From the NCBI GenBank assembly GCA_963971225.1, contig OZ020269.1:109377486-109441485 (forward strand): 64,000 nucleotides of DNA, written 5' to 3'. A program made the translations under genes and the position numbers. Origin of the DNA: Melieria omissa (Eukaryota > Arthropoda > Insecta > Diptera > Ulidiidae). Below, in pieces: positions 36,290 through 61,750 of this stretch (its first letter is position 1; every line of letters begins with the position of its first letter). The notes under the pieces were generated by a model. That model saw nothing but the letters and a program-made list of their open reading frames with translations. It searched no databases and was not told where the DNA came from.

Positions 36290-38705
36290 GTTGTACCCAT
36301 GCTTGTACAACTAACCCCAGAAATGCTGAACAGCTACGTAAATTCTATACCCAACAGATGTTAAAGCATTATTACGAATTATACTAACACTAATCACCAA
36401 ATGATGGGCGTGCACCTAAAACCAAAAGTATTTTTTTATACTAATTTTGGGTCGCTGTTATTTCAGTTATGAGCGAATGTCTCGAAGAGGAATCATCCGA
36501 TCAATGTCCCGAAGGTTTCAATTGAAACTTTATCACGTGTGTTATGCATCACAATTATTTTTGTTGAAGAATAGTGCTATGGCACCTCAATGTTACAACG
36601 TGGGTTTGAGTCCCAAATGATCTAATACGAAATATAGAAATTGCTTACCAACTATCCTCTTACCCGACGCTTGCAATGACGCTTACAAATCCATAATGAG
36701 ATACTTTCATACTTAACTTCGACGAAATTGCATACTGATTTTAACGGCATTCAATTTACCTCCATATACCTGCGGGAAGCTAGAACTAGCCCTGCTAAAG
36801 CAAAAATGCATAATCCTCATCGAATTGCACAATGTGCACAAAAACAACGCATGTATGTATACGACATATTTGAGAAGTCATACCTCTGTTGTTAGTACCA
36901 ACTAACACACAAAACCGATTCTCTCTTAGGAAGCTACTACACAGTCTTATTCATATACTTGTAAGTACACAATATGCATGGTGCTGTATACATATTTTTG
37001 TCTTGTTAATAATTTATTGACGGATACAAAACAATCATATGAAGCGCTATTAGACACATTGCTTGTGCTCGTTTATACATAAGTACATACATAAATAAGT
37101 CATATATGCATATTAAGGAGGAATTCTGTATTGTGAGGGTAAAATAAAATTTGGTTTGCAATATACAAAACAGGATGCTTTACAAATTAGAACAAGAAAG
37201 ACTTCGATTAGTAAGTGGCACCAAACTTGTGTCTTTATATACACATAATCGTATATGTAAATCATACAGATGTGTAAATAAAATTAGTTAAAAGACTACA
37301 CACAGTTACTCGATTTTCTTGTATTTTTCCATAATTTCATTTTTGTTACTTGTTATACATTTCGTATGGATCATTAGTAGTTAGTTGGGTTTTAAATGCA
37401 GTTGTTTTGCGCTTAACATAATCCACGCCCTTCTGTCAGCATTATTATCATAAATTTTTATCTTTAGATTTACTCTTATTAGATGCATTAAAACTAGGTT
37501 GTTAGTTAATGTTTTATATTTTGTTAGATTTACATGCGACTACCCAGCTTAGATGTTAAAATTCGTTAAATACTAAACTGTTTTTAAATCGTCATTTATT
37601 TTGCAACGTTTTTTGTTGAAAAATTCGTTTTTCGCTAGCGCGCTTGCTATAATAGCCAACTGGCTAACCAGCGCGTTTCCTTGTATCATATCGGCTTCAA
37701 CTGTAATTGTTCGTCGTGCTCTTTTGTTGTTCGTTCCCTTATATAAAATTAAATAAATACTTTTTGTGTTTGATTTCTAAACTAGTAAAAATGTTCTTCG
37801 GTTTTTCGATTTCATTTTGGTCTCCTACATTTAACATCTGTATGTTTCTAGTACGATCTAGACGTTCTCACATAAAATTTGTTAATTTTCTTATTGTAGT
37901 TATGTTGTGGTATTATTATTACTCGTGGTTTGTATCTGACTGCAATTGCTTGCTTGGCGATAATTCATATGAAAAGAGAGTAGCAAAATTTTGGTCTGTT
38001 GCATATTGATATTTCATTCCATTGAACAACTCAATAGTGTTTCTTCATTATAATTATTTATGGTAGATGCGCAGTAAAAGTATAAGACATTGGCATTTTC
38101 CATCACACGAAAAGGGGTTAGTGCGAAGACAAAAAGTATGTGTGTAGGTAGCAGAAAACAACATCCATTTCGATATCAATATATTAAGTTTTAATATATA
38201 TTGTCGCCTTGTTCATCAACAAAGAACGATGTGGATGCATTTGCATCAATTTCGTCTGGGTAGCTTGCATTAGATACGCTTTCAAAAGATAATACACGTT
38301 TACAAAAGTTTCACTTTAGTACAATACAAGCTTTCATTTTGTATCTTACTACGTAGTAACGTACACGAGAACGTGTATTATTTGCATGTACCGTATAGTT
38401 TTAGTATAGTGTGTATGTGTATGTTTGTAATTTTGTATATGTAGTAGTAATAGTAATAATAGAAATAGTAGTAGTAGTAGTAGTACATACATAGTAGTAG
38501 CAGTAGTGGTATGCAATAAAATTGAGTTATGGTATTCGTATTGATTGTGCCGCACGACGCCCTCAGCGGTGCTTCTACATGTGAAACTGAATGTATACGC
38601 TTCCGATGTGGCGCCAGTGGGTCGTTTGTGCAGATGAGCGGGGTATTCAATTGCGATCGCGGCGTACGGTGGCCCAACAGCGCGCAACCGAATACCCGTA
38701 TTGTA
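36290..38705 (-). other. Gene-free; probable 3' UTR and downstream flank of slit
   Basis: No ORF with recognisable content. The part next to 38705 would be the 3' UTR of the slit transcript, whichever stop codon is used. It contains an (agt)n microsatellite. Confidence 0.45.
38440..38510. repeat. (AGT)n-rich microsatellite
   Basis: Imperfect agt/aat triplets over about 70 bases, in the presumed 3' UTR of slit. Confidence 0.8.
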
Positions 38706-40952
38706 CTACCAGTGCATCAGTCGTATTTGATCAAGAATGCGTTGCTTAAAGAATGTGCCCAACATGCCGAACACCGTGGAGATGGCCGCAATTCCCATCA
38801 TGGCCTGCATGATGCAATGTATGCCCGATAAGTCCTCTTCGCTCGGTTTCTGACGGTGGCGCTGCCGGTGATGACGGCGGCTCTCGTGTTCACGCAACCT
38901 TTGCAGACGCTCCAATTCCTCGTCGAAGTGTGGAATTATAGCCAAATTTACCACTTCTGTCTTGGCGAGTACCTCTTCGTTGGCAATATTATTTGCCTTA
39001 TTCTGCTCGGTCGCATCGTTATAGTTTGGTTTGCTGTTGTAATGGTCTTTAGTAGAAGACTCTGACGACTGCTGATAATGTTGGTTTCTGTGTCTGGTGC
39101 GTTCGTCCAGCATTGTGTTATCCTGACTGAAGTCAAAATCAAGGTTTCGAGTGCGTGCCGAGGTGGGGTACTCCGCCAGATTAACTTTAGTAAGAAAGTG
39201 CAGTGTGGTTGTGTCTGTCACATGATCCACTGACACGCCAGCCAACGAGCGTAGCACTGTTTCAGTGGTAGGCGAATGTGTAGGACTGTCTTTAATACGG
39301 AATTGCTTAAATTGGTTCTTCTTTATACCGAGCACTTCGGACAGCGGTCGATTGATTATGGGCAGCACCGAGTCTGTAGGACGTATTATGAATGAACCGG
39401 TGGTGTCTGCTACACCAACGCCAGCATATTGCACTCCCCCCTCCAACTCGCCCTCGCTCAGTTTTGTGTTAATCTTGTCCCCTCGCACATCTGTCTGTTC
39501 GTCGTCAATATCTGCGGTCCCGTCGTTTTCATCATCGTCATCACCATCCGATTCGTCGGTCGATTCATCGTCGCTGTGAACTGAATGTGGTACATTATCC
39601 TTATTGTTTGTACGTGCAGCACTTGCTTTATTGTCCGTTGCATCGTTTTTGTTGTTGTTGAATTTGTGTGTCAGATTGCGAATTGGCTCATACTTCGAAC
39701 TCTCGGAGTCGCCGCGATAAAGCAGGGCAACCTTGCCATCAGGTGTCAACACAGGCGTTATTTTGGGATGCGAGGACGCCAGACGATGACTGCTCTCAGG
39801 ATCGGGCGATAGCGCGTCAAAGTCAGTGAACGATGTTGTTTTCTTGCTGGCAGTCGTATCCTTTTTTTCGGTCTCCTCTTCCGCGGGTGTCTGCTGGTAC
39901 ACAATACCTACTTTACCTAGTGGAGTCGATATTATTTTTATCGCGTCGTTTGTGTTTTTGCGAAAATATCGACTACTTGACTTTGACCGCTTCGAGTTGA
40001 AGAAGCTGTCACCTTCAGCCTCACCGCCATCGTTGCTATCATCACCGTTGTCGTTATCGCGGTCATCGTCATCATCCTCGTCATCGTTAGCAAAATTGCC
40101 GCTGCCTTCTCGCGAGTCAACTTCGTCTCTACTCGCGCTTTCTGTCAACAATTTCTGTTGCTTTCTATGGTATTTTTCTAGGTAATCTAACCTAAAGTTA
40201 TTATCATTAACATTACTTTTGTACCTACTTAATGCTGCTCTCCCATAGCTGCCACTACCTTCTTCGTTCATGAAGCCTTTGTTGCTGTTCGGGTCGTTGT
40301 AATTGTCGTTGTCATTGTCATTAGAGTTATTATTGTTACGCCTTTCACCACCTTGTTGCCTTGTTGTTGCAATGGCTATACGTTCATCATCCTCATCATA
40401 GCCCATATCTTCCTCCTCTTCAACAATCATTGCATGTTTGCGGTCTTTCTTTCCGTTGATTTTTTCATCGTTGAGCGATTGTACTAATTCCTTTGCTTCT
40501 GGCAAGATTTCGGGTTCCATATCACCATTCTGATAAGCTATTTCTCCATTATCACTCTCATACTCTTCATCTTCGTCATCATCGTCATCATACAAGTCCG
40601 TGCTTGGGTTTAGTTGCATGTGTTCCACCCCTTCTGCATTGTAGTCATCAGTCTCATAAGCGTCGTCAGCCTCTTCAATCACCGCCATTACAATGTCTTC
40701 TTCTCGCTGCACTTCCTTACCAGCTCTATTATCACTTTCAACGGTCCACTCGCCACTACTTGGTTTCTCTCCGGTGGCTCGTTCTTCTCCGGTTTCACTT
40801 ATGTTAGTATATATTATTTTTGTTAAGCTATCACTATTTTCGTAATCATTATTAGCATTGCTGTTGCTACTAATTAAAATACTCATATTTCTAGGTTCAC
40901 TTAAATTTATATCTAAGCTGCTATTCAGCAATTGGGTAGTCGCATCTTTCAG
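38706..40952 (-). CDS. sli: 748-codon in-frame extension after the slit stop codon (candidate readthrough domain)
   Basis: The slit frame ends TGC TAC TGA at 40953. The next codon CTG opens an uninterrupted 748-codon frame in the same phase, in the same exon, ending TAG at 38706. The extension is very acidic and low-complexity: DLYDDDDDEDEEYESDNG near the start, then Asn/Asp runs and Ser/Thr/Lys-rich linkers. A motif occurs twice (STPLGKVGIVY at about 39898-39930 and LTPDGKVALLY at about 39717-39750), and a less biased block reads IINRPLSEVLGIKKNQFK. A hydrophobic helix (CIMQAMMGIAAISTVFGMLG, about 38748-38825) and a 13-residue basic tail close it. No signal peptide is seen. The first ATG in the frame is at 40886. 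It may be a UGA-readthrough part of Slit, or a separately initiated second ORF on the same mRNA. No homology to a named domain is recognised. Confidence 0.7.
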   Translation of the reverse strand: MKDATTQLLNSSLDINLSEPRNMSILISSNSNANNDYENSDSLTKIIYTNISETGEERATGEKPSSGEWTVESDNRAGKEVQREEDIVMAVIEEADDAYETDDYNAEGVEHMQLNPSTDLYDDDDDEDEEYESDNGEIAYQNGDMEPEILPEAKELVQSLNDEKINGKKDRKHAMIVEEEEDMGYDEDDERIAIATTRQQGGERRNNNNSNDNDNDNYNDPNSNKGFMNEEGSGSYGRAALSRYKSNVNDNNFRLDYLEKYHRKQQKLLTESASRDEVDSREGSGNFANDDEDDDDDRDNDNGDDSNDGGEAEGDSFFNSKRSKSSSRYFRKNTNDAIKIISTPLGKVGIVYQQTPAEEETEKKDTTASKKTTSFTDFDALSPDPESSHRLASSHPKITPVLTPDGKVALLYRGDSESSKYEPIRNLTHKFNNNKNDATDNKASAARTNNKDNVPHSVHSDDESTDESDGDDDDENDGTADIDDEQTDVRGDKINTKLSEGELEGGVQYAGVGVADTTGSFIIRPTDSVLPIINRPLSEVLGIKKNQFKQFRIKDSPTHSPTTETVLRSLAGVSVDHVTDTTTLHFLTKVNLAEYPTSARTRNLDFDFSQDNTMLDERTRHRNQHYQQSSESSTKDHYNSKPNYNDATEQNKANNIANEEVLAKTEVVNLAIIPHFDEELERLQRLREHESRRHHRQRHRQKPSEEDLSGIHCIMQAMMGIAAISTVFGMLGTFFKQRILDQIRLMHW

Positions 40953-41747
40953 TCAGTAGCATTTCTTTGTACACCCACATTTACGTACGATATCTAAGTT
41001 CTTGATATACTTTCGATTACTGCTACACACCATGCGGACCTTAAAATATCAATTAAATAAAAAATAAATGAAAAATTAAACAAATTTCAACAATAGTTAA
41101 TGAAGCTAATGATTTGTTACCTTTCGTCTCCTGACAATCTTTGCCGCACAGCATTGATTTCCGCAACCGCCTACGCATTTTGCATATTTCAAAGGCTGTC
41201 GCGATCGGCAATCGTTCTCTGTGTAGTACTCCCTTACTTGTTCTTTACGACAAGTGGACGCAACTGGAATTATAAAACATCAAATTCTGAACAATACTGT
41301 CAATCGGTATATAGCCGTAATCTGTAAATATTAATTTATGACAGTCCATCGCATGACGAATCAACCCGGTTTTCGTTCGATAAAACCAAAAAGCTAAGAA
41401 AGTACGCGGAAGATATAAATTTTGTTTTACCGTCCGTTAAATACAGTCTCTCATTGATTCCATTGGTAAATGTAAAAAATTAACTATTTTCAAAATCTAA
41501 GTCTGTAGGCTTATTCAAATGAGAGAAATTATATGTATGTATTTATGATTGAGTAAATAAAATATGAGTATGAATGAAGAAAATGGTTAATACCAGTTAT
41601 TGCTGGGGGCTCAGTTGTGCCCTCACCTTGATCGCAATAGCGGCCCTTGTAACCCTGTCTACATTTGCACTGATACCCGTCTTTCGAGCTGGGGTTAGGG
41701 AAACACCGACTGCCACGTCGACATTTATTATTCTCGCAAGGGTCCAC
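40953..41747 (-). CDS. sli: slit EGF 7 and C-terminal cystine knot (exons 19-21)
   Basis: Exons 41747-41594 (EGF7, [20 protein letters not shown]), 41263-41121 ([18 protein letters not shown] ... [13 protein letters not shown]) and 41039-40953 ([20 protein letters not shown], then CGCTKKCY and TGA). The cystine-knot (CTCK) cysteine pattern is intact. The stop is TGA followed by C. Confidence 0.95.
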
Positions 41748-44700
41748 CTGTAAATATAATACATGTTCATATCGTCATGTCCACAAGAAAACATCATTTT
41801 ATTTTAACCTCTTTGATATGTGGTGTTTCATCCATAAAATCTTGTTCATCATCTTCGGCATTTTCACCTTCAAGCAGGGCACAACCGGGTGTGATCTTTT
41901 GTTGTCTTGCTGCATTACCGAAGTCAACCAATTTATGATTTATCCACACTTCCTTCATGCATCCCTTGAAGCTAGTTAGGTTTCTAATTTGCCAGTTCTT
42001 GTACGCTTGTTGTCCTGGTTCGGATGGTATACCGCCAAGGAACATTGGCGTTGTTAACTTTAGGTAGTCATTAGAGCCCTCGTTGATAATAGATCGAGCA
42101 AGACCCCGGTCTACGCGTAGGGTAAAGTTCTTCTTAATAGCTAGCAGCTCCACACAATGGTATTTGCTATCGGCTACCATTTCAAAACTATACATTGTGG
42201 AGACCGGGTAGTTACCCACATCATAACTAACACGTATTCGGCCGTTAAACAGTTCCACAGCCAAGTGTGCATCCTGACCATCATACATAAGAATTCCATT
42301 TTGCTCAGAGCTGCTAAATACAATTGTCACATTTGCGTCGGGCTTGGTTCGTAACGGCTCCATCTCGACGAATGAGTTGTTATGTACAAAACTAATGCTG
42401 GTCAAATACTCGCACCATTTGCCCGTGTAACCCGGATGGCATTTACAGAGATAATCTGATCCAGATGGATTGGGCTGGAAGCAAACGCCATGTTTGCACT
42501 CATGATTCTGACAGGGCGATGTTTGCGGATACATCATCGAAACCATGTTGTGACCCTCACAGTATTTGCCGGTGAAATCATCCGGGCACTGACAAACGTA
42601 GTCGTTAATGCCGTCAACGCACGTGCCGCCGTTCTTGCACATATTATTTTGGCAATCATCAATGTTATCACTACAGTTAACACCATGGAAACCAGGCATG
42701 CATTGACATGTGTAATGTGAGAAATGATCGTGACACTTGGCGCCATTGGCACATGGATTGAAATCTTCACCACAGAAATTAATTTTAGTATCACAATACT
42801 CTCCTGCAATGAATGAATGGCAAATTAAAAATTTTTTTTTCGAATAGCTACAGGGTGGGCGGAAAGATTCTACATAAAAAAACACCCTTAAGGATCATTT
42901 GTATTGCTTTTAAAACTTTTTTTATTTAAACAACTAAATCATATCCAAACAAAGTTCAATTGATCATTCATATTTCGCTTTCGAAAACAACACTGACGCT
43001 TCGGCCAATGATATGACATTCCACTCTTGTTTTACTCTCTCAATAATTCGAAGTCTATTGGCAGGTTTTGGACTCAGAAATACTGAATCTTGATCCTGGA
43101 CCAGATATGTTCAATAGGATTAAGATCTGGCGAATTTCCCGGCCAGTCTTCCCATACTAGCTTAAATAGACTTTTAGCAGCACTTATTGACTGTTTCGCC
43201 GTATGACATCGCGCACCGTCCTGCATAAAAATCGCTGTAGATGTACGAGGGAATTGCTTAGGATTTTCAAACCATCACATTATTGGGGATTTCCCCATTT
43301 CGTTTTCAAATAAAACAAGCAATCAGAATTTTAACTATATTACAATTGAAACGATGTATGCAGAAACTTTCCGCCCACCCTGTGTATGATAACTTACCAG
43401 TGAAGCCTGGTTGACAATCGCATGAGTATGACTCCACACCATCAACACAGGTTGCATTGTTTTGGCACTTAACTTCGCCCAGACAATCGTCGATATTTGT
43501 CTCACAGCGAGCACCTGTGTAGCCTGGCGCGCACTGGCAGCTAAAACGACCTTCTTCTAATACAGTACAAGTGGCGTTATTGCGGCATGGATTCCCATAA
43601 CAAGCGTCGATCATGAACTCGCAGTGCTTGCCGTGGTAGCCCGGCTGACAAAGGCACTGATAATCGCGCTGCGGAAGTGGAAGGCACTGGGCCTTGTTTT
43701 GACAGGGATGTGTGTAGCAGGCATCACATTTTGCCAGTATATCGTTGCTTACTTTTCCCTTGCAAACAAAATTATGCGATGGCGTCGACAGAATTAGTTT
43801 CTCCCTCATATGCTCCGGCTCAGCACAGCGTGCAATTCCCGGCTCAACATAGTCCAGTTTAATCCAGTCCGAAAACCATTTCAAGGAGCAATCACAGTAT
43901 AGTGGATTGCTGCCAAGTGCACTGCCGAGTCAAATGAACAATAAAATTTGGGGAAAAAAGAAAGTCAAATTTGCATTCGAGAAAAGTCGAACTACACTCA
44001 CATATGGGTTAAGGATTTCAGGTCATCAAAAGAGCCTTCAGGAAGCATTGAAATACGGTTTCCGTGCAGCGATAGTACACGCAGGTTACGAAGACCAGCC
44101 AAAGCGTAACGTTGCAGGCATTGTAGGTTGTTATAGGATATAATGCTGTGCGGAAGAAAGTTTACAAATTGTATTGCGATGAAAGTAAACAAAATAGTTC
44201 TATAATACTAGCTGCCGCCAAAGGAAAATCTGTTTTCTCAATGTTGGTGTAGCATTACCTACTCTTTATCATAATGAAACTATACTAGTAAACCAGAATA
44301 ACGTTTTTTTTATTATTATGATGAGAAGAGAGAAATTTGAAAAAGTATTTCTGATGTATGTCACAATGCTTAATAAATAACCCTAAAAAACTTTAAAATG
44401 ACAATTTTCTATTGCTCTTTCATTAATTTGTCTTCACTCAAATTATACATCAAGACGCTAAAGTAAAAATAAAAGAAAGCAATTTCCCTATAAAAATTCA
44501 TGAAAATAGCTAAAGTAAAATAGAACACCCCTTAACCCTTTGCAGCACGGTGGGAAGACGTATATCCCACCTAGAATACTACCACTTATCTTGAAAAGTT
44601 TTTAACAGATTGATACAAAAATTGGTGTCCAGGGGTTTTCGGGGTCGCTGATCACGAATTTATTATCAGATTACCAAAATTCAAAATGGCGGATCCAATA

Positions 44701-47700
44701 TGGCGGACCGAATTAGTGAAACTTATTCACATCTGTATGAAAATTGGTATACGGAGGTTTTCGAGGTTGCTGATTACGAATTTGATATCAGATTACCGAA
44801 ATTCAAAATGGCGGATCCAATATGGCGGACCGAATTAGTTACACTTATTCATATCAATATGAAAATTGGTATACGGAGGTTTTCGGTTTTTTCACTAATT
44901 CTGTCGGCCATATTGGATCCGCTATTTTGAATTTCGGTAATCTGAATCAAATTCGTAATCAGCAACCTCGAAAACCTCCGTATACCAATTTTCATACAGA
45001 TGTGAATAAGTTTCACTAATTCGGTCCGCCATATTGGATCCGCCATATTGGATTGCTGAATTTCAAAAATTTGATTACATATTCGTGATCAGCGACCCCG
45101 AAAACCCCCAGGGCGACTATTTTCATTGAAAAAAAGTTATCTGAAAAATGTATGCTTCAAAGGGTTAACGAAAATAATACTCCAGCAAAATTATGCAAAC
45201 CTCTTCCGATGGTTGGGTAGCAGTGCAGTCGTCCAAATAATCGTATCCATATGAACGTTCTGATTCTATATTTTGACAGATGCAGTCGTGTCGCTGCTGT
45301 CGTCTAAGCATATACATACATATGTACATACCTATGTACCAATTTACCTCATTTGCAATTATCGAATCGTTCAAGTGCAACAAAGTGAATCCTTGTGCAT
45401 GAACCGAGCGAGAATAGTGGAAACATTTGAAAGCAAGACATGCATAAGGCACGTCTTATTGTTAGAAAAAAGTCAGTAAATTTTTCTAACTATCAGCAAT
45501 ACTGTGTCAAAAGTACTTAAGCTTTTGGCTACGTCACATCGAAAAAAAGATTCACTACTATTGTGAATTTCTAACGCAGATCTTCATTTCGGCATACTTA
45601 CAGCGTTGAGAGGCTCGACAAATTGGCAAAAGTATAGTTGGAGAGACTCGTGATTTGGTTGTTGCTTAAATCCCTATTCAAAGAGAGATACAATGTAAAG
45701 AAAATTATTACACTTGCACATGCTTAAGTGGATGTTTCAATAAGCCACATTCTCTTCATTGTAAAAATGTTTCAACACTCACAATCTCGTCAACGATTTA
45801 AGATGCCTTATACGATCAATATAGATTACGCTGATCTCGTTCGATTCCAGATACAATTCCGACGTTTCGGTAGGTATGCCGCGCGGTATCTCCTTCAGCT
45901 GATTACGCGAGCAGCGCACCACCGTACCGGTGCATGTACACGACGGCGGGCAATAGCCATCGCCTAAGCAGCCCTCACTGTTATCTGCAGAGCATTTAAA
46001 CTCGTTGTGTGGCAAGTCTTTGATTTGCAAGTCACGTAACTTTGTTGGCATAGCGCAACGTGCAGATCCACCAATAAGTCCCCGCTTACGCAACCAGTCC
46101 GAAAACCAGGCAAGATGACAATTGCAATTAAATGGATTTGAAGCCAAATTTCTGTGGAATAACAAGCAAAACAAGGGAAATAAATATAAAACTGTTTGCA
46201 AATTGAAGGAACTATGAGGGCCCAATCAACAGAAGGATACATTGCTGTAGCGAATGGGATTCTATTATTGCATCCCTATGCACTATGGTTACTGCTGCTA
46301 GTAGTCACCATGGTAAATATGCAACCACGCATTGTTCGCTGGTTAAATAAACGTTCGTTAATGCCGCAGCTGTATTGCAGTACGATTTAAATCTAAAACA
46401 ACTCTTAAATTATTTGCTTTTTGACTAAAAACTCCAATTTCGAAATAAACAATTGGTGAATTTCTCCAACTTTCCATAAATCCTTTTTAAGAATTTTCTT
46501 GAAAGACTTACATATAAGTACATATATATTATCATAGTTTACTGTTTGTTAGTCTGTATGAATCGTTAATTAATTCTAGGCTATATCTTAAATAAAGAAA
46601 TACACATGTCCATATACTTTTCTTGATTGCGTTCTTGAGAGTGTCTTCTTGTGATGTATACTCTATAAGTCTATGTAGCTAGAGTGATGACGGAAACAAT
46701 GTATATAAACAGACTTTGCACAATGCTTAAGCTATTTCTATGTTCAACTAAATTTCAATTAATTAAATCATCGAAGTCAATAAAAAGTACTAGCACGCAC
46801 ATGGTGATTCGTAAATGATGCTCTACGCGACTCATTATTATTATGGGGGCCCAGAGTCGTCTACACAAGTGCTGCTGATGATTACAGTGTCGGCGATGAT
46901 GGCAGCATCAACAACGACGACATAAGGTGCCAGTGCGTGCGTTCTGTTGCTATTATTATTTGTGCAAAGAGCCACACAAAAGTTCCGCTCTTTCGCCCTC
47001 CTCCACGACTTTTTGTCATAAATTGAAGTTCAATTGAATTAAATGCATTTCTCTAGTGTGCGTTTTTCTGATGTTACGAATTTTAAGCAAACAGCGCTCA
47101 GTGATTCTCTAGCATACGAGTGTACTGCCAGACACCGCGAAGTTCACCCTCGCAATCATACCCATTAACCCCATTTCATAAAAAAAACTGTGCTGTGCGC
47201 AATCTACTCAATTTATACAATACAGCAGCAATTAATTACTTCCAATGAGCAGCAGTACCACTCCACTCTGTGCTGTTAGATATACGGACCGCAGCTATGT
47301 TGCCGACCTCTTCAACAATAGCTACCACAAGCAGACAACAAGCACTATGGCATGAGCCCAACTACACAGCAGACAACACAAGTGGAAAGCGCTTGAGATG
47401 CGTATGCATACTTACAGCGAGGTGAGCGACGATAGGAACTCAAAAGACCCAGGCATGACGCAGGAGATTTGGTTGTCGTACAGATTTCTAAAAGTAAATT
47501 AAACATTTAATGATTTTATAATCCCTACTTCAAAATCATAAATTGTTTGTTAGAATTTCTCAATCTTGAAAAGTGAAACAGAATAATAACAATACATTAC
47601 ATATTTTGTAAAAATTAATTGACCATAAATTTCGACAAAAAAGTATGTTATAATATTTCCCCGATCAAGTTACTATAAAATTTGAGAAAGTCAACTTTAA

Positions 47701-50700
47701 ATTCTATTTTCTATATTATGATTTTTTTCTCACAGCGTTTTTAATTGATGCAGGCCCAGAAACATCTTATTAGAAATTTCACGAATTTTATTCTCAGCCA
47801 ATTGTAAGTCTTGAATGCGTGAGGCACCCTCGAAAGCGTTCGGTTCAATGCCCGTTATATGATTACGTCTCAAATCGAGACGTATTAAATGCGGTAAGCG
47901 ACCGAAAAGTCCATCAGATTTTATCCGGCTCACTTCGTTGTCATTAAGTAATCTAAAACACAAACATTTTAATATACAATAATCACTGAAGCGCTACTAA
48001 ATTGTTTGCTTCAACTTACAGTTCCGTGGTATGTAAAGGTATATCGCGGGGTATTTCCAATAGCCCGCGTCCAGAACAGTCCACCGATGTGCCCTCACAC
48101 TGACACATAGCTGGACACTCGGTGTCCATGCGGCACTCGCTTGACAATTTGATGCGCAACTCATCCCAAGAACCTATAGATAATAACATTTCGCTAAGTC
48201 ACATTAATATACGTGTTAATAAATCAAAATCCACAACTCTGAAGTTGTTGGCACAGAAAGAATCTGAAAGTCGCAAACAGCCGACTTTGACGGCATTTGG
48301 GCGTTGGCACATTTTTGCGTGTACTCACATTTAAATTTCTCGTCCCGCAACGATTCAATACGCCGCCGATGCATCCGCTTCGGTGACTCGCAACGCGCAC
48401 CACTTGTCTCAATGGGGTTCTTGTGCAAGTAGTCGGCTAACCAACGTAAGTTGCAATCGCAAATAAAAGGATTTTTTGCCAAATGCCTGCGGACGAAGAG
48501 AAAAGTAAGAAATCACAGCTTTGCAAAGAAAGAATTTCAAAGAATCCTGTAAGAATGCAAGTAAGTGCTTTTTATGTATGCACTATGTCAAAAATGGGCA
48601 AGAAGGACAAGAGCAAAGGCAACTACAACGTAGAAAGTACAACAAAATACATGGAATGTCATACAGAATGTGGCCCTCAAGGCGCTTTCTACCATTTACA
48701 AATCCGGCACAACAAGTGTTATTGCTTCTAACGCTGCTGCTGTTCTTAAACAAAAAGAATGTGCCTATACCTAGCTCCCTTTCTTCTCTTTTTCCTCTTC
48801 GACTATTTATTGCGTAAACAAATAGTTGAACTTTGAATAGACAGACGGTTAAAACGTGTAAAAACATCCAAGCGCCGTCTACTTACATTTACACCGCAGT
48901 TTATGTACACAGAGCAAAACTACAAGCCAACATATTAAGCAGATTTTGGAACAAGGCACAACGATGGTTGCTTTACATCTTTGTGGAAAATTTTAGCACC
49001 GGATCTAAGCTAATATACAATAGATGAATGCCCAATCAGTTCTACAACAGTTCTGCATAGACACTTGGACTCGCCTAATCCAATAATTTTATTTTCCAAA
49101 CCCGATTATTCCTTCTTAGGCCTTAGGTTCAATTGCCCTTCGAAGCAATAAAAAAATAAACAAAAAATAATAATAAAGTAGATAGCTCTAGCAGTTACTG
49201 TCCTTTTAGCAGGATATGGCAAACCTCTGAGAGTATAACTTATTTATAATCTTTAAATAACTGTGTAAACTGTGTGTAAACTTGAAAGCTAAAGATTTTT
49301 AAAATGTTAAGTTCACCTATGCATATATATATAAAGTCCGACTGATTACTCGGTCGGAAGGGCAAGCATTAACCGATACCGATGACAATTCCGTAAATAA
49401 AACGAATGAATTCAATCAAAAACAGTTTATCTCACAAAAGAACAAAAACGAAGGGGCCACTTGTATATTAAATATACATTTGTTTGTAACATATATCGTT
49501 GTACAGGTGTGGTGGGTAGAGGTCAAAAAGGTAGAGGTCAAAGGTCATATTTCGTTGTACAGGTGGGTAGAGGCCAAAAAACAAACTTGGAAAAAGTAAA
49601 AGGTCTGTTAAAAAATGCTTGCAATTAACAAGAATATTAAAAAAGTAATTATATGACTTTGTTCAGATGCCCATATTTATAGACGAAATACATACACATT
49701 TCGAGATAATCTGTGTTTTTTAAGCGGCTTACGACGATGACATTGACATCATCGAACGTAACAAGCGAGATGTCACCGCTGCCTTTGCGGCAATCGAAAG
49801 AAAATCTGCCAAAGTGGGTCTGGTTTTAAATGAGGGCAAAACGACGTAGACGGCTGTCTACGCGCAGAGACTCGCAGTGGCTAGGGTCTCACGTCGAGGC
49901 TGACAGGTATACTTTCGGCGTTGTCAAGAAATTCGCCTACCTTGACACGGCTATAAACAGCAGCAATGATGTGAGCCTGGAGATAAAGCGAAGAATTACT
50001 CTTGCCAATAGGTGCTTCTATGATCTCAGTACACAACTGAGTATCAGAGACTTCTCTTGACCGACAAAATTTGAATTCTATACGACACTTATTCTGCCTC
50101 TATGGCGGCCAAACATGGACACTGTGGGTGTGTTCGACAGGAAGATACTTCGCAAAATCTTTGGCCCTGTTCGTATTGGTGACGACTATCGTATATAAAC
50201 CAAAAACGAGCTGTATAAACATGGATGTAGCACAGCAAATTGACATCCAGCGACTACGCTGGCTTTGCCATGTTGACGACGAAGCTCCGGCGAAAAAGGT
50301 GTTCAATGCGGTAGTTGGTGGTCGACGGCGAAGAGGGAGGCCGTGTCTCCGGTGGAAGGACCAAGTTCAGGAGGCTTATCTTCTCTTGGCGTTACCAACT
50401 GGAAAAGCCGCGCGTAAATCAGAGGCGTCTGAAGAAAGCTTTTACGGCAGACCGTAACCCGGTAACGAGTTGTTATGGCCATTTAAGTAGTTAGTAAGTA
50501 ACAATAGTTTTTATGAAAACATCTCTAGGAAACATTTATAATAAACTATATCTGAAAATTCGTTACTTAAAAAGGGTATAAGAACCCATATTCTGCTTTT
50601 TTTAAGTGACGTATTTTCGAATATTGCTTAAAATAGACATTGTTTAAAAAGCCCGAAGGCGCCACTTCAAATGGCAGCGTACAATAACAAGTGTATAATT

Positions 50701-53700
50701 AAGCAAAGCGAGTGATTCAGCATAAAAAAATTCCAAAAATTGGAAACTAAAATTAAAACAGAAAAACAGGCCGATGTGGCACCGGCCAAAAAAAGCCCAT
50801 ACCGATGCCGACACCAATTTTTGTGACCGATACTAGCCGATGCCGATTAATCGGTCTGACTCTATATCAATATATCTCCTCCATACAACCTAAATTTTTA
50901 TAGAATTATATGTCGGATATTATTGAAATTTTGTATACCGTCGTTCCACAGATGTGTCACTCTACTGGTAAAATTTTATAGGCGGTGGACAGGGGGTGTG
51001 AAAAATTGTTTGTGACTCAAATTTTGCGCGTAACTTTGGAACTGTAAGTCTGCACATCAATGAAACTGGGTCGCACCCGTCGACTGGAAGAATGTATTGC
51101 GCGTTGCATAAAAGGGGCATGGCACTGTATTAACAGTGTTGTATGAAGAAACTGTGCAAAGCGTGCAAAGCCGCGGAGCCTTGCTATTATTATATACTTA
51201 AGTACAAATTTTTACGAAACGGATAAAGAACAAATTGAGATTTTAAAAGGTATTTTGTAAATATTACTCCATGAAAAGTGCCGCCAACGTGCCTTAATGA
51301 CACTTAACCGATCCCCTGCAAATGCACGGTCTCTCTCTTTGCATAATCTACTTTAAGTTGTGAATGTGAGATTCACAAAAAGCACAGCTTACACTTGCAA
51401 TAACGACTTATGGGTAAGTACTCGCTCTTGTACTTACAACGTCTGAATACTCTTCATCGCATCGAAAGTTCCATTAGCCAGCGACTGTATGTTGTTGTCG
51501 TACAGGGACAGTAGACTAAGGCTGTGCAGGTCGCGGAAAGCATCTTTGCGTATGCACGAGATCTCGTTGGCATTCAACAGCAACAGCTGCAACGAAGTAA
51601 GTCCTTTAAAGACTCCTGAGGGCAAGTCCTTTATTTTATTGCCATAGAGAACACTGAAAAGAGAAAACGAGTACAAAAAGGAGTTTGTTAGGTGATGAGC
51701 ATAATGGTGAAATGGCAAAACGCTGACACGCCTAAGCAGATAAAATAAGCATAAAGGTGGTAATTGGCACGTATTCATGTAAAATATCAGGGGTTGTGGA
51801 GCACCAAGTCGCAAATAGAAACAATAATTTAGAGCGCCAGTATTCTTAAAAATGTAAAGTCAAATAAAACAAAAAAATTTGGATAAAATTATCAGCCTGT
51901 TTGGTAGCAGATTTGTACTTATTTCACAACCGTTACAAACGTCTGCACCAGTGGAACCACGGGCTTTGCCCGTACAACTGTTCAGCCCAATACCATGTGA
52001 AACCAAATTTTTTGGCAATTTTCGTGTTTGGTGGTGGTTTGAACCCCGAACTCTCCCCCGTCGTGCGCCGCTGATCTGCACTGACAATGCCGTAAGTATG
52101 TTGTAGCAATGTATGACCTTCTGATTTGCGGAAAACCTCAGAGGAAACGTGCACTTGTAGCCAACACAACAAAAATTAAAACAAGGGCAACTGTGAAAGG
52201 TGATGTCTGATAAGGAAGTTTACATAGGCTGATCAACACCAGTCACTCTCATACTTACATACATTTTCTGATGGTGCTGTATTTTATAGTTCACTATTGT
52301 TTAGTTTGTAATATGCAATAAGCTTTTTTTGCCGAAAGGTGAGGGCTAATGGACGCTTAAACCTATGCGGTATAGTACAGACTGTTAAAATTGGTATACT
52401 TACAGTGTTGTAAGTGCCTTGAGACCGCTCAATGCATCATGAGCTATACGCGAGATGTTATTATTAGACAGGTCAATGCGTCGCAAACGTCGGAAATTGG
52501 CAAATGCTCTAGGCGGTAACTCCGTTATGAAATTTTGTTCCAAACGTCTGCAGAGACATACAAATTAACAAAATTATCATTAAATGGACAGCGGGAAGGT
52601 ATCATTTACGCAAAGCGTTTACTCACAACTCTGTGGTATCGTCTGGCAGCGATACAGGCACGCTAATGAGACTCTTCTCTCGGCAATCAACAATACCGTC
52701 GGCACATCGACAAGGGTGTGGGCAGCTATTCTCCATACCACATTCCATTGGTGCGTGTTCGGTTAGGCCTGTAATGGTTTCAGCATATAAATATCCACTA
52801 ATATCAGCGAAACAGAAAAGTCAAATAAAACCCTCATTTAAGTTCAATCCTTGCAAGGCAACCATTCATCACATATTGTAAATGTGTTGATGCAAAGTAT
52901 CCAATGTTTCAAGAACCTATGATTATTGACAGCTAAAACTAATTTTCAACCGTCTTGACTCAACTCCGACCCTCGTGCACCCGCCGCAGCCGGCATCAAA
53001 GTTATGGTAAAGACAATTTGTTTTCGGCGGCAAGACTTATTCTTGCAAACTGGCTGTTGCAACTAAAAAGCCAAGCGTCCTCAACTTCAACTTTATTTCT
53101 ATGGTACATACCTATTTACATATTATGTATATTTCACTTTATCAATTTAGATCATTCACTAATATCATTACGTATCATACCATGATTTGTTGTTTTTCCG
53201 ATTTACGCTAATCAACAACAAAACAACTAATACCAGCTAACCAACCAGCTGCAATGAAGGCCGTCGTACCTGAACATTTGAACTCCTGATCGTGCAAGTC
53301 TGCTACGTTTTGTCCTTTCAGCTGCGATGGTGACTGGCAACGTGTGTACGGAGCCAGACGTGGTGCGCTGCGTAGAAAGCGCGACAACCAGGATAAATGA
53401 CAATCGCAGGAAAATGGATTATCAGAGAGCCGTAGGGCACGTAAACGTCCCAAGCCGCTAAAAGCATTGTGTGGCAACGACGTTAAGTTATTGTTGTTCA
53501 GCGTTCTGCACATTAAGAAGAGTCGAAAATAAAATATGTATAACAGTCTGCAATCGTTGTAAATATAGTGGACAGTGATACTTACAGTATCTCCAAATCA
53601 ATGAGCCCTTTAAAAGCATGTTCGTCTAAGCAGGTGATTTGATTATTGTCCATTTGTAAACTGCGCAACGACTGGGCGCCCTTGAAAACCCTTCGCCCCA

Positions 53701-56700
53701 CCGTTGTGATGTCATTGTGCGAAATATCTCTGTGGGGAAATTAGTGGTTTGAAATATTAACCCTCAGCTAAGATTTAAATCAAAAACGTGTTCATTCGAT
53801 ATACTCTAAAACCTTAATCAAATTAGTAAATTAAGGTGCTAAAAATTAAACTCAAGTTTTTCTAAGGCAAGGCTTGCAAGGTAACAAACTATTTCTTATT
53901 ACATACGTAACTAACCTACTTGTAAGCCTATGTAGCATGCTGTAAAAACCGTTTAAAAAGTTAAGAAGCAATTGCACTCGACTACTTACAATCGTAAAAG
54001 ATTCGTAGAACTTGTCACAAAGTTTTCAGGTATGGCTTTTAGACGATTATTATTAAGGCGCCTGCCGATTGGCAATATCAGAGTACAGTTGCATGCAGTT
54101 TGTGTGCACAAAATCCAAATGGAAAATGTCGAAATACGAGTAAACCAAAATAAAATTGTCGAAAGAACGAAACACATAAAAAAGATAAAAGATAAAGAAA
54201 TATGGTGTAAGAATGTGTAAGATACTACCTCTAAATAAATGAGACAACTCAATTAGATATATGTATTATGCAGCGTACAACAAGTTTAAAGCTCTATACA
54301 TTCCTAAATCATTGAAATTTATGCAAAAATATATATTTTTCTTATAGAGCTTTACACGCCAACCATGTAAAAGCTAGTAGTAGCCAAACATGCAGAAAGA
54401 TAGAATTGTAGCTTACAGTCGCTCCAACGACACCAGATCCTGGAAAGATCCTTTTTCGATTGTGTGAATTTGGTTGTCCGTCAATTGCCTGAACGCGTAA
54501 CAACGGAAAAAGAACAGAAGGTATCTTAGAACAAACGATCATATCTCAAACAAAAGTTGTGAAAGTAAGTAATACCAAAGCAAAATAATACAGAGTACCT
54601 ATTTAAACGTAAACTTAACTACTACAAAAGTGCAAAATATTTATACTTACAGTATCCGCAATTTAGTCAGCCGTTGAAAGTCGGACTCAAAAATTACGGT
54701 GATGTTATTGCCTTGCAAGTCCCTGAAAACATAAACAGCCATGATTGCATATGCAATAATTGTAGGTCAAAGCCATAATATGTATATGTCCGATTTATGT
54801 TTCTGTGAAATCTAATAACCATCAACGGTAACTAAATATTTGAACAAGTTTCATATCTGTCCGAGCACAGTCCAGTAAGATGAATATAAAAAAATGAAGG
54901 TGCAACAATTTTACAATTTATTATTTTGATTCCTAAAAGGAAAAGTCAGATCAAAGCTACTAAGCATGGAAGATTGAAAGAAAATCAAAGCGCGAAAAAA
55001 ATGTTCATATTAGTAGTTGTCCTGGCACGTACACACCAAGTTTTTGGGCATTTTCTTTTATCATTACTCTTTTACAATTATTTGCAAGTTTTCCGAACGT
55101 AGAAATCTTTTGGGTTTTGAACGAACGCGTGGTTCCACATTCTGAAAAAGAAATGGGCCTAAAATATATATATCTCTGTATATAAGAGAACGAAACATAT
55201 TTTATCTCAGATAATCACTCAAACCTCACTCGCAATTTTACAAAACGAGCATACACGTTGCTACCTGCAGCTTTTCAATGAAGAAATCTCTACAATATTT
55301 AACACACGAACCCGCGGACAAAGAACATTCGAAGAAGCTAAAAAATTTCGAAAAAGAAGGGCACCACACTCGGCTGCTGGTTTGCATTGTGTTGATTGCT
55401 AGCAGGTAAAATGGTTAAAATGGCAGTACATATACATAAAATCGATGTTGTATGTTAGTTGCCGCTACACAGAAAGCCGTAAAACCAAATATGTAGTATA
55501 AAAGAAAAAAGCGCTGATAGAACATCACCATATGGTCGGAAATGTGTCTTAGAATCAAGTCGCTTCATTTTGAGATACAGAGGGACGAACAACGGTATGT
55601 TCATGAAAACATGCAACAATTACAGTTATCAAGCAATAACGAGATAAAGAAATTAATTAAAACTTAAATTAATAAAAAAAATTAATAATAGTTTATAAAG
55701 CACAATAATCATAATCGTTTGATCTGCCTAGTTCTAATTTCTCCACAAAACCAATTCACAAAAAAAAATTATTAATATTATATAAACATACAAATTGCAG
55801 CCACTCTATGACTTTCGATTAAATTTCAAAGCAGCAATTACTCGATATATGTATACTTTCTCCGTAACAATTTGCCAGCCAAAAGAGTACACAAACTATA
55901 CAAATAAGTAAACAAACAGGTAATACCAAGAACTTACAAGTTTGCAGAAACAACTGGTATTATGTAAATTCAAGCTTAGCTGAGCAGACGATCGTGGGCC
56001 AGTAGTTTCACAAACACGTAAGCACATAATTGTTTTTTGGTACAATATGCATCCAAAAAAACTCAGATGAAATAATATAGTATTTGATTACTTCTTTCCT
56101 TCAGGACACGAAGGACATGGCGGAAATGAACAAGCAGACCACCTAGCAAAAATGGTGCCTTACGCCCACTGATAGGCCCGGAACCATTCTGTGGACTACC
56201 AAGAAGACACATTCAGAAGTGGTTACTGAAATGGGCTGAGCAGGGAAGAAAATTCCTAGCCCCGGACAGAGTGGCGTCCAATAATCTCCTCAAACTAAAC
56301 CAAGAGGACCTTCTCATCCTTAGTGGGTACCTAACAGGGCATTGCCCACTTTGGTACCATCTCAAAAATATGGGAACATCCTCAACGGGACGGGTAAAAC
56401 GAAGGCTGCACACAAGATTGGTCGAAATTGGTCGAAGTGTGCTATAGATAGATATATATTTATCTTGTTATCTACATATCGCACACGCACAACAAACAAC
56501 TCAAAATTTTTGATTTTTCAGAAAACGCAAAAAATTGTGTTTGAGCTAAATAAACATTTAAAAAAGAAACGTATAGACCGTTCAGAAGAAAATCCTTACA
56601 GATTATGCTTTATGATAAATTGCAAGAATTTTGTTTTTATTTTACACAAGAAAATCCAAAATTTTGAGTTGTAACTGTTTTGATGATATTTTAATTCAAT

Positions 56701-59200
56701 AATTACGGAACTATTTCAAGTTATGCCACTTATTCGGAATTTAATAATTATAAATTACAGTTAAAAAGTTGAAAGAAACATTTTGAAAAATTATAATTAA
56801 TTTTAATAATTAAAAATATATACAAAAATTGTCAGAATTTTGCTTAAAATTAACTTTAACAAAAATGTATTTCATCAAAAGTGACACAATTTGAGTTAGG
56901 ACTCTTTTGCATTGAGGTGCAGCGATCAAATAGCATCAAATTTCTGACATGAAGAGAGATCTAACTGTATTTTTGCAACAGTTAACAACAACAAAATATA
57001 CTGAGCTTTTGCTGATTGGTAGATTTATGCATTGTGCACAGTATTAACACATAAACCCGAAAATTAAAAATTTTGAGTTGTGTCACTTTTGTAGTGCGTG
57101 TGCGATATGTACATACGTATAATTGTTTGTTCTGACTGACTGACTGACCGATTCATTATCGCTCAGCCCAAGCCGCTAAAGCTACAAATATGATATTTGA
57201 ACTGTTAAGACGGGATTTTGATTTCAATTTTTCGAAAATCAAAGTCAAAGTGGTTGAAACACTTGGAATCAAAAACTATTTGACACGTTTTTCTAATTTT
57301 TTTGAAAATGAAAACTTGAAGGAGTGAACCTAGGGTTAAAAGTTTATATGAAAAATATGATTTTTTACGCCTTTTGTCTTCAAACTTGGTGAAAGTACTC
57401 TTAAGGCGAAGTAATTCGATACGTATTTTTTATTTTCTCGAAAATAAAAAACTGCCGTGGTCAACGACGGGTTAAAGGTTTATATGCAGAAACTGTTAAC
57501 ATGAATTAATGGGCATATTGACTTCAAACATGGTGAAAGTTCTCTTAGTACGAAATAATTCGATACGTGTTATTAATTTTTTCGAAAATAAAAATCTGAC
57601 GGGTTTATGTGCAGAAACTGTGAAAAACATGAATTAATGGGCCTAATAATAATAATTAATATTAATTGACTGGCACGACATCCCGATACCGCGACTAAGG
57701 CCTAGCTACCCGCAACCATCCATGTTGTGCGTGCGAATTTGAACAAGGTTGGAAGGGACCTACAGTTTTATGCCGATTCCGAACGGCGAGTTGGGAGCTT
57801 TTTCATAAGCAATTTTACTCTCAGCCGTTTGCCATTTTCTGCTGAGAGGACAGCCGCCGTCGTTTGTCGTTTTTCTTTTTTCGATGTTAGCAGCAACGGA
57901 GTTTTGAACCTGGGTTCGAGCGTCGCATTTCATTCGCGGCCAAACGCACTAGCCAGCTGAGCTACGACGGCGGCGAATTAATGGGCCTATTGACTTTAAA
58001 CTTGGTAAAGGTACTCTTAGTAAGAAAGTACTCTTAGTGTGTTTTTCATTTTTCCGAAAATCAAAATCTGACGAGGTCACCGATGGGTTAAAAATTGTTG
58101 TGGTGAAACATTACTTAATACACCAATTGACTTCAAATGTAGTGAAATAACTAGAGAAGTCTTTTTTCATAAAAATCTAACGGGATCATCAAAGTGTTAA
58201 GAAGAACTTGATTTATTGCCCTCATTGACTTCAAACTTGCGTGCAAGCCCGCGGGGCACTGCTAGTTAAATGTATATGATTCAATTTAATTATATATATT
58301 TTTACTGCTCGATAAATTCTCGCAAGGTCTTACAAAGTATACTGTGACATCACCTAAAAAAAATTAAAATTTACATGTTTTACATATTGGTGATTTACCA
58401 AAATTCGGAAAACAAATTTCAACTCTGAGTGCCCCGTTTTTTTTTTTGGGAGGGGGCGTCTAAATTATGCCTGACACGTTGTGTCGCAATCTCATCCAAA
58501 TCGAACAAGCATTTCAAAAGTTATTAAGATTCGTTTTTAATTATCACAGCATTTCATAGACTCTGATGCACTACGTTTGTACTCGTACGTATCCTTGCAA
58601 TTCAAGAAAATTAATGGCGTTTTACGAGTAATGTCTCGGCATCACACGGTGTACTAAAGCACGTGCATTATAATAGAATAGGCCATGTTAAATGTCACAT
58701 ATTATAGAAAAGTTGCAGTCTAAAGCGATCAGTTTTTGTTTAGTTTTTAACTGGAAGGCGTTAGATAAACGAAGTGTAGGTACTGAATACAAATGAAAAT
58801 ATTTCATAATCACATCTCGATAGAATGTAAGTGTGGTGCATTTTATTTTCCATCTAGTTGGACCTTTTTCAACATTCTCACATTTTCAAAGAAGTTGTAT
58901 TAAAGTCGGCATTGCTTGTACTTACAGTCTTTCCACATCTGCTGATATTTTCCTGGGCACTTGGGTTAAACCCCGATGCGAACAGTCCACAGTGAGGCCG
59001 CTGCACGAACAGACGCGTGGACACCGCGATTCACTGATTACACCTATACTGCCACCAGGAATGTGAATGCCCACCGAACCGCCACCATAAGGTTCAGCTG
59101 CAGCCCTGTGCGCACCGCTGTGGGCAAGTAACACCAACGCAACCAACATCCAAGCATAGAGTAAACATAGAGAAGAGCGCACGTTAGCCCAACTGGTCAT
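40953..59200 (-). CDS. sli: slit, secreted midline axon-guidance ligand (Robo ligand), 21 coding exons
   Basis: Exons in transcript order: 59200-58926, 54722-54651, 54488-54417, 54061-53990, 53729-53586, 53505-53270, 52768-52627, 52547-52404, 51653-51438, 48486-48329, 48173-48020, 47952-47734, 47487-47416, 46151-45783, 45673-45602, 44145-44002, 43921-43398, 42803-41809, 41747-41594, 41263-41121, 41039-40953. All junctions are GT-AG and in phase. The sum is 4464 nt, 1487 aa, against about 1500 in Drosophila. The domain order is complete: signal peptide, four LRR blocks with N- and C-caps, six EGF, laminin-G, seventh EGF, cystine knot. Slit is secreted by midline glia and repels axons through Robo. 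LRR block 2 binds Robo and the protein is cleaved between EGF5 and EGF6 (family knowledge). Many single-LRR 72-bp exons share phase 2, the classic Slit repeat-exon pattern. Long introns carry several transposons but no exon is broken. Confidence 0.97.
41809..42803 (-). CDS. sli: slit EGF repeats 4-6 and laminin-G domain (exon 18)
   Basis: One 995-bp exon. EGF4 ([15 protein letters not shown]) and EGF5 ([20 protein letters not shown]) are followed by the linker [10 protein letters not shown], the conserved region where Slits are cut into N and C fragments. Then come EGF6 and a laminin-G domain ([15 protein letters not shown] ... [19 protein letters not shown]). An acidic stretch ([13 protein letters not shown]) ends the exon. 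The donor, gttaaa, is weak, but phase and the next exon fit exactly. Confidence 0.95.
42851..43384 (-). mobile_element. Internally deleted Tc1-like transposon in a slit intron
   Basis: The left end CAGGGTGGGCGGAAAG and the right end CTTTCCGCCCACCCTG are inverted repeats next to TA on both sides, with two extra bases at the right end. Within, the minus strand retains the transposase catalytic core as a pseudogene. The element is about 530 bp instead of the usual 1.3-1.7 kb, so it cannot move by itself. Confidence 0.75.
43020..43229 (-). pseudogene. Tc1-type transposase fragment
   Basis: The minus strand reads [16 protein letters not shown] and, further on, [18 protein letters not shown], the second and third catalytic-acid regions of Tc1/mariner DDE transposases (D in QDGA, E in NPIE). 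A stop follows shortly after, and the N-terminal DNA-binding part is missing. Confidence 0.75.
43398..45673 (-). CDS. sli: slit LRR block 4 and EGF repeats 1-3 (exons 15-17)
   Basis: Exons 45673-45602 ([18 protein letters not shown]), 44145-44002 ([30 protein letters not shown]) and 43921-43398. The last holds C-cap 4 ([15 protein letters not shown]) and three EGF domains ([12 protein letters not shown]..., [12 protein letters not shown]..., the calcium-binding type [15 protein letters not shown]), about residues 790-1028. A piggyBac-type MITE sits in the intron between exons 15 and 16. Confidence 0.95.
44536..45164. mobile_element. piggyBac-type foldback MITE with TTAA target duplication (C)
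   Basis: It begins CCCTTTGCAGC and ends (reverse complement) CCCTTTGAAGC, with TTAA at 44532-44535 and 45165-45168. Most of the 629 bp is a large imperfect palindrome. A block containing caaaatggcggatccaatat occurs twice on the plus strand and then inverted twice. It lies in the slit intron between exons 15 and 16. Confidence 0.75.
45783..48173 (-). CDS. sli: slit LRR block 3 and N-cap of block 4 (exons 11-14)
   Basis: Exons 48173-48020 (N-cap [14 protein letters not shown]), 47952-47734 ([17 protein letters not shown] and two more repeats), 47487-47416 (one [18 protein letters not shown]) and 46151-45783 (C-cap [20 protein letters not shown], then N-cap 4 [14 protein letters not shown] and a first repeat). 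The 72-bp exon at 47416 is short but fits in phase and restores the missing repeat. Confidence 0.93.
48329..52768 (-). CDS. sli: slit LRR block 2, the Robo-binding unit (exons 7-10)
   Basis: Exons 52768-52627 (N-cap [19 protein letters not shown]), 52547-52404 ([29 protein letters not shown]), 51653-51438 ([14 protein letters not shown] and two more repeats) and 48486-48329 (C-cap [20 protein letters not shown]). They cover about residues 291-510. In Slits the concave face of this block binds Robo Ig1. It is the least diverged part here by eye, consistent with that role. A 2.95-kb intron between the last two exons hosts an hAT-like element and an RTE fragment. Confidence 0.95.
49333..50865. 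mobile_element. Degenerate hAT-like element, host of an RTE insertion
   Basis: Near-inverted ends (agtccgactgattactcgg at 49334-49352, and its 16/19 complement near 50840-50862) enclose about 1.5 kb. gccgataccgatgcc-type motifs lie near both ends. Inside are a short tandem of ggtagaggtcaaa (about 49510-49575) and an RTE LINE fragment. The superfamily is a guess from the end sequence. It lies in the slit intron between exons 9 and 10. Confidence 0.4.
49727..50500 (+). pseudogene. RTE-clade LINE reverse transcriptase 3' fragment
   Basis: Frame-broken coding reads [20 protein letters not shown], then [27 protein letters not shown], and later [10 protein letters not shown] and [17 protein letters not shown]. 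That is the order from just after the catalytic DD to the C-terminus of insect RTE-type reverse transcriptases. The tail gttgttatggccatttaagt followed by taagtaa repeats is the expected 3' end. Several stop codons and frameshifts show it is dead. Confidence 0.75.
53270..54722 (-). CDS. sli: slit LRR block 1 (exons 2-6)
   Basis: Exons 54722-54651, 54488-54417 and 54061-53990 are 72 bp each and carry one LRR apiece ([35 protein letters not shown]). 53729-53586 carries two ([30 protein letters not shown]). 53505-53270 carries the last repeat and the C-cap ([17 protein letters not shown] ... FKCS). Together with exon 1 they cover about residues 60-290. Confidence 0.95.
56104..56410 (+). pseudogene. 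LINE RNase H domain fragment
   Basis: It begins [17 protein letters not shown], the final catalytic region of a retrotransposon RNase H, and continues (one break) with [14 protein letters not shown] and [16 protein letters not shown], typical of the segment after RNase H. It is truncated at both ends. Confidence 0.65.
57131..58265 (+). mobile_element. Helitron-like element with about 130-bp tandem units
   Basis: At least four diverged units of the form ttgacttcaaac-ttggtgaaagtact ... attttcgaaaat-aaaatctgacg ... gggtta run head to tail. The right end has a GC hairpin (gcaagcccgcggggcactgc) followed by CTAG and T, the classic Helitron 3' terminus. The left end is uncertain; tctgactgac at 57131 is a guess. 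No Rep/helicase coding is present. A SINE has inserted into one unit. Confidence 0.5.
57646..57974 (-). mobile_element. tRNA-derived SINE, copy 2, with 15-bp target duplication
   Basis: Same family as 12798-13100. On the minus strand the head starts at 57974 with box A TAGCTCAGCTGG (57964-57953) and box B-like GGTTCAAAACTCC downstream. The tail is an AATAAT-rich run at the left end. The 15-bp gaattaatgggccta at 57631-57645 is repeated exactly at 57975-57989, a target-site duplication that proves retroposition by a LINE enzyme. Confidence 0.85.
58926..59200 (-). CDS. sli: slit exon 1: signal peptide and LRR N-cap 1
   Basis: The ATG at 59200 gives [20 protein letters not shown], then a hydrophobic core and AAAEPY, a normal signal peptide. 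Then come VGIHIPGG and the Cys-rich N-cap [19 protein letters not shown]. The frame stays open 34 codons further up to an ATG at 59302 with a Gly run. I prefer 59200 because the signal peptide would otherwise be internal. The donor is gtaagt after VER. Confidence 0.9.
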
Positions 59201-61520: not shown

Positions 61521-61750
61521 TTCGCTGCTCAAAGACGCATACGTACCTTGGCTGCAACAAGGTAGTGGTCCGAGTCGATGTTCGGCTCTCGGAACGTGCG
61601 CACATCTAGAATGCTAGAAGCATCAATCACAATGTGATCAATCTGGTTGCGGGTTATACCTTCTCGCCCGACATTTGCATTGAAGGACGATTTTGACGTT
61701 ATGGGCCAGGCACCCGTCGTAGAACCAACGGAACTGAACCCAACTAATCT
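61521..61750 (-). pseudogene. LINE endonuclease fragment
   Basis: The minus strand reads GITRNQIDHIVIDASSILDV then REPNIDSDHYLVAAKV, the end of an APE-type endonuclease (SDH motif) of an RTE-like LINE. It abuts the RNase H fragment of a different position in a LINE, so the join is a rearrangement or a nested insertion. Confidence 0.65.

Follow-up and report, generated by a model that had tools for sequence, protein, structure and literature searches.

A conserved 748-codon frame behind the stop codon of fly slit, a candidate readthrough extension with a C-terminal hydrophobic segment

In the fly Melieria omissa (Diptera; Ulidiidae), the reading frame of slit remains open for 748 codons after its TGA stop. 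We found that this frame is conserved as coding sequence in other Diptera, that it is attached directly to the slit stop, and that it ends in a conserved hydrophobic segment. Readthrough of the slit UGA is the best explanation of this extension in the light of comparisons of predicted proteins, and we consider it likely. Slit is a textbook secreted guidance cue, and a readthrough product of this kind would turn it into a type I membrane protein.

The slit locus and the frame behind its stop

The window, that is, the whole stretch of 64,000 nucleotides that was analysed (contig OZ020269.1 of assembly GCA_963971225.1), carries slit on its minus strand. In tblastn, D. busckii Sli (P0057) and a Glossina slit (P0056) match it piecewise from 59278 down to 38709, and Pfam recognised EGF, Laminin_G, and LRRCT in the two slit exons that were scanned. 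The last canonical exon ends at the point where canonical fly Slit also terminates. The FlyBase identifier of sli changed around 2012, possibly because a downstream gene model was merged with it. The features discussed below are as follows, in positions of the window.

41039-59278, minus strand: body of the slit gene (spliced exons with LRR, EGF, laminin G, and the start of the cystine knot), from tblastn and Pfam
59123-59170, minus strand: hydrophobic core of the Slit signal sequence, assigned by eye in the translation of the first exon
40956-41039, minus strand: last canonical slit exon, 28 residues, end of the cystine knot
40953-40955, minus strand: TGA stop, proposed to be leaky, in the context TAC TGA CTG AAA
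38709-40952, minus strand: conserved in-frame extension of 748 codons, from translation, protein searches, alignment, and codon usage
40935-40952, minus strand: LKDATT directly after the stop, with L-x-D-A-x-T invariant in nine sequences (the window and eight relatives)
39894-39944, minus strand: conserved motif AIKIISTPLGKVGIVYQ, residues 337-353 of the extension, a weakly predicted beta hairpin
39711-39764, minus strand: second, similar motif KITPVLTPDGKVALLYRG, residues 397-414, a weakly predicted beta hairpin
39669-39677, minus strand: N-glycosylation sequon NLT, residue 426, kept in 43 of 53 aligned rows
38748-38816, minus strand: conserved hydrophobic segment, residues 713-735, a proposed transmembrane anchor, followed by the basic tail KQRILDQIRLMHW
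38706-38708, minus strand: TAG closing the extension

The original prediction, made from the letters of this DNA, had read TGC TAC TGA followed by 748 sense codons up to a TAG, and we recovered the same coordinates (40955-40953 for the first stop and 38708-38706 for the second). The length of about 2236 residues for the whole readthrough product is the value given in that prediction. The extension is the longest of the seven stop-to-stop frames of at least 200 aa in the window, the next one having 366 aa. The number of stops expected in it is 49 from the base composition of the window or 44 from that of the stretch itself, the corresponding probabilities of a run this long are about 1e-22 and 3e-20, and between 19 and 101 stops interrupt each of the five other frames at this place. 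Codon usage fits that of the slit exons best in the extension frame, which scores +0.312 log-odds per codon; the remaining two frames on this strand score 0.063 and 0.057 (with stops set to 0), and 500 intron controls reached at most -0.054. The first 22 codons of the extension are weak by this measure, at 0.066 (intron control median -0.117, 95th percentile 0.198). A chance open frame is ruled out by the length, the expected number of stops, the codon usage, and the homologs described below; the claim that the run is too long for chance holds, and coding conservation in relatives adds to it. Among the best candidates scored in the 490-Mb genome, the extension has a single match.

Beyond the TAG, the same frame is open for another 118 codons (38349-38705, minus strand), a stretch that has no coding signal (-0.071; intron 95th percentile 0.060). 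Several relatives have sequence past the terminal HW region: P0037, P0038, and P0052 continue with similar tails (GVRYWVGLSRRG, GVRFWVGLSRRG, and NIRFWIAFNRRSG), and P0054 and P0055 continue with YWWLVVPF. These tails perhaps reflect a second leaky stop in some lineages. On the other side, upstream of slit, a 222-aa open frame (60940-61605, minus strand) matches RNase_H below the threshold (E 0.0004; 21 bits against a cut-off of 25.8) and is probably a transposon remnant.

Conservation and content of the extension

A protein search with the extension returned 52 relatives at E <= 0.001, and two further protein searches added three and five. The relatives span tephritids, calyptrates, Drosophila, Megaselia, and Anopheles, the comparison thus lying within Diptera; the named ones are Rhagoletis, Anastrepha, Glossina, Sarcophaga, five Drosophila, and Megaselia, and others are tagged 'lgn', which we take to mean Logan assemblies. 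Three Anopheles slit models aligned with 20-52% of the queried part, and their identity to it was 29-41%. Conservation of the frame in related flies, on which the original prediction turned, is therefore found at the protein level from Drosophila to Anopheles and, judged by its sequence, the extension is a conserved coding region rather than a product of chance.

Conservation is concentrated in five islands, which together hold the 29 invariant columns of the 53 aligned rows: AIKIISTPxGKVGIVYQ, ITPVLTxDGKVALLYRG, NRPxSEVLGIKKNQF, NLAIIPxF, and the C-terminal hydrophobic segment. The sequence between them is acidic and of low complexity, and in 48 of the 53 rows, as far as each row reaches, Cys is absent before the HC at the hydrophobic segment. 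Searches of Pfam and the PDB found no known domain in the extension. No Pfam family matched any of the 53 rows at E <= 0.001, the window extension alone gave one sub-threshold match (E 0.26) when Pfam was searched up to E = 1, and the PDB held no match by sequence. By fold, the best PDB match had an E of 4.7 on a model with a mean pLDDT of 43.8, values for which we give this result no weight. The AlphaFold model of the window extension is mostly disordered, apart from a helix and two weak hairpins at the GKV motifs. The two motifs, AIKIISTPLGKVGIVYQ and KITPVLTPDGKVALLYRG (39711-39944), are similar and look as if one small beta hairpin, which has no Pfam match, had been duplicated within the protein long ago. 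Two relatives, P0003 and P0005, bear the public names 'dentin sialophosphoprotein-like' and 'probable WRKY transcription factor protein 1', which are probably misnomers arising from the low-complexity acidic, Asn-rich stretches.

The most consequential feature of the extension, absent from the original prediction, is its C-terminal hydrophobic segment. Hydropathy peaks near the C-terminus in all 53 rows: the 19-residue stretch with the highest mean (1.65-2.24) lies there, and the flank on its C-terminal side is net positive. For the window sequence, AlphaFold predicts a helix at residues 705-747, in a block with a pLDDT of 65-91. P0016 has, in addition, a Val/Gly-rich stretch whose hydropathy comes close to that of the segment (1.80 vs 1.88).

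The junction itself was addressed with a targeted protein search, which returned eight relatives, all eight in phase across the stop as ...KKCYW-L[KQL]DA[AT]T; the variants are KKCYW-LKDATTQ, -LKDATTH, -LKDAATH, -LQDAATP, and -LLDATTQ. As the query spanned the stop and the candidates were length-matched, it is partly by construction that these records cross the stop; the match of their residues is not. In the window and the eight relatives, conservation of the peptide begins at the first codon after the stop. Before the first Met, 9 of the 36 pairs that can be formed from the nine junction sequences beat all of 200 shuffles, and these are mostly pairs of close relatives. Most pairs from distant lineages do not rise above the shuffles, so the early extension beyond LxDAxT diverges fast. 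In one relative, P0053, the last slit intron seems to be absent (RRRKVRMVC is uninterrupted), and the junction past the stop is kept.

Readthrough and its alternatives

At the position of the stop, the window has TGA as DNA and the predicted proteins of the eight relatives have W. In principle, several relatives could have TGG here; Slit would then be ancestrally longer, a recently acquired stop would have removed its tail in some flies, and readthrough would not be involved. We regard this as very unlikely, as the extension is still open and codon-biased in the window, and canonical fly Slit ends at the same point. The W would most simply reflect a gene finder that translated TGA by genetic code 4. 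Two relatives point to this, as their records begin a little further downstream, as though interrupted by a stop: P0009, with 508 of 676 residues identical to P0002, starts at the eighth residue after the stop, and P0034, with 374 of 404 residues identical to P0036, starts at an internal Met.

In Rhagoletis, Anastrepha, Glossina fuscipes, and four Drosophila, public records list the extension as a protein that lacks Slit, which would agree with a separate gene or downstream cistron that has its own AUG and encodes a tail-anchored cytosolic protein next to slit. Such a protein would also have a hydrophobic segment near its C-terminus, and a Met (MQ[LAST], residue 112 of the window extension) is common to 29 of the 53 rows, mostly from higher flies, where it could serve as an internal start. 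However, the first Met in P0035 comes only at residue 241 of 444 and in P0036 only at residue 408 of 441, past the conserved GKVALLYRG block in both, and with no Met before these residues their conserved GKV blocks are not made from an AUG of their own. Conservation moreover precedes the first Met and reaches back to the stop codon, and the sequon kept in most rows is at odds with a cytosolic protein. The first Met of P0002, P0010, and P0012 is at residues 101, 107, and 104, and the stretch before it aligns far above shuffles (for example, 47 of 97 residues identical). The higher-fly rows alone would leave the question undecided; the explanation by an independent AUG fails on P0035 and P0036, and we regard a separate gene as very unlikely. 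The readthrough isoform of the original prediction is thus favored over a separate gene by conservation that starts with the codon after the stop and by two relatives in which no AUG is available for a large part or most of the extension.

Alternatively, an intron around the stop could be spliced out in a minority mRNA and so connect slit with the extension in frame. In seven slit models from the databases (P0015, P0026, and P0056-P0060), the extension is indeed reached through a junction that removes the stop. Some of their left sides recur (...IVRK in two Drosophila, ...VR in Sarcophaga and A. coluzzii), the true donor after RRRK is used in the Glossina and A. epiroticus models, and the last exon contains GT dinucleotides, such as GTACGT at 40988 and GTAAAT at 40984. 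Yet when left and right sides are taken together, the seven models have seven different junctions, and each model deletes at least part of the last cysteines of the cystine knot. The Glossina pallidipes model also lacks the conserved IISTP block that is present in its relative P0011. Furthermore, junctions that skip the stop leave the first codon or codons after it untranslated, although those codons are conserved. We therefore think splicing around the stop unlikely, and the inconsistency with which gene models skip the stop rather speaks for the readthrough reading.

The sequence around the stop agrees in part with readthrough. In the available sections of PMC5100048, C after UGA is one sign used for readthrough candidates. 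The original prediction had placed the slit stop in the leakiest context; the UGA followed by C stands, but the site reads UGA-CUGA and not the UGA-CUAG motif given in those sections. No stable stem-loop was found 3′ of the stop (z -0.30; further foldings -1.39, -0.38, and -1.42), so that RNA structure after the stop has no signal as a readthrough stimulus in the folding z-scores. Rfam includes SECIS models, and no SECIS match was found among its families between 34000 and 41300 up to E = 1, which speaks against the reading of the UGA as a selenocysteine codon.

A membrane-bound form of Slit

From these observations we infer readthrough, the topology of its product, the tethering of Slit, and its role. 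A fraction of ribosomes would decode the slit UGA as an amino acid and continue in frame for 748 codons. The product would consist of Slit with an intact cystine knot, a long acidic and mostly disordered stalk with the two short GKV motifs, a transmembrane helix, and a short basic cytoplasmic tail. The pattern of a type I protein is present, as seen by sequence, by eye, and by structure prediction, in that an N-terminal signal sequence is combined with one C-terminal hydrophobic segment and a basic flank. With a signal sequence in front and the hydrophobic segment at its end, readthrough Slit would be a type I membrane protein, and both the signal sequence and the conserved sequon are consistent with a lumenal route. 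Most Slit would be secreted as usual, and the readthrough form would remain bound to the surface of the cell producing it. Proteolytic cleavage of Slit would then set free its N-terminal, Robo-binding part, and Slit-C would stay behind on the membrane.

In 2011, Jungreis et al. reportedly described genes with conserved stop-codon readthrough in Drosophila and Anopheles. Slit resembles the known insect readthrough genes, in the available sections of PMC5100048 (Jungreis et al. 2016), PMC3840789, and PMC4528330 (on the rule-benders of FlyBase), by its UGA with C next and by its conserved in-frame second ORF, and it resembles the long extensions of PMC4528330 by the low-complexity stretches between conserved islands. 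It is unlike most in length, with 748 codons compared with extensions mostly of 8-300 aa (range up to >1000) in the available part of PMC4528330, and unlike the known insect readthrough genes in that a secreted signalling ligand would gain a membrane anchor. Eight readthrough extensions with predicted transmembrane domains are listed in Table 2 of PMC3840789 (Dunn et al. 2013); readthrough of slit would likewise add a membrane segment, although slit is not among the eight in that table and the segment described here is conserved in all 53 rows. The names 'sli' and 'slit' are absent from the main texts of PMC3840789, PMC5100048, PMC4528330, PMC4999894, and PMC8417969. Slit may nevertheless be listed in the supplementary gene sets of earlier readthrough studies. 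Among the papers found for slit or sli together with readthrough, none was on slit readthrough by its title or the start of its abstract. None of the six proteins from a length-matched database search was named as D. melanogaster, each of them representing a 90% cluster for which one name is shown. Readthrough with conserved extensions is well established in insects.

A form of Slit held on the membrane of the producing cell has a parallel in the artificial tethered alleles slit-CD8 and slit-GPI, which, according to the available sections of PMC7648596, were engineered at the endogenous locus, disturb midline repulsion, and were used to study short-range Slit action. Unlike these alleles, the form proposed here from sequence would occur naturally, as a counterpart that a fraction of ribosomes produces. 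Given these alleles and their effect on midline repulsion, natural tethering of some of the Slit would be directly testable.

The seven public slit models reach the extension only by skipping the stop. If readthrough is true, about one third of the longest form of Slit lies past its canonical end. We lean somewhat towards the view that, across flies and mosquitoes, regulated readthrough of one UGA sets how much Slit is diffusible and how much is cell-bound, and that a natural tethered Slit has been kept since these lineages split. Translation would then be a step at which flies could control the balance between diffusible and cell-bound Slit.
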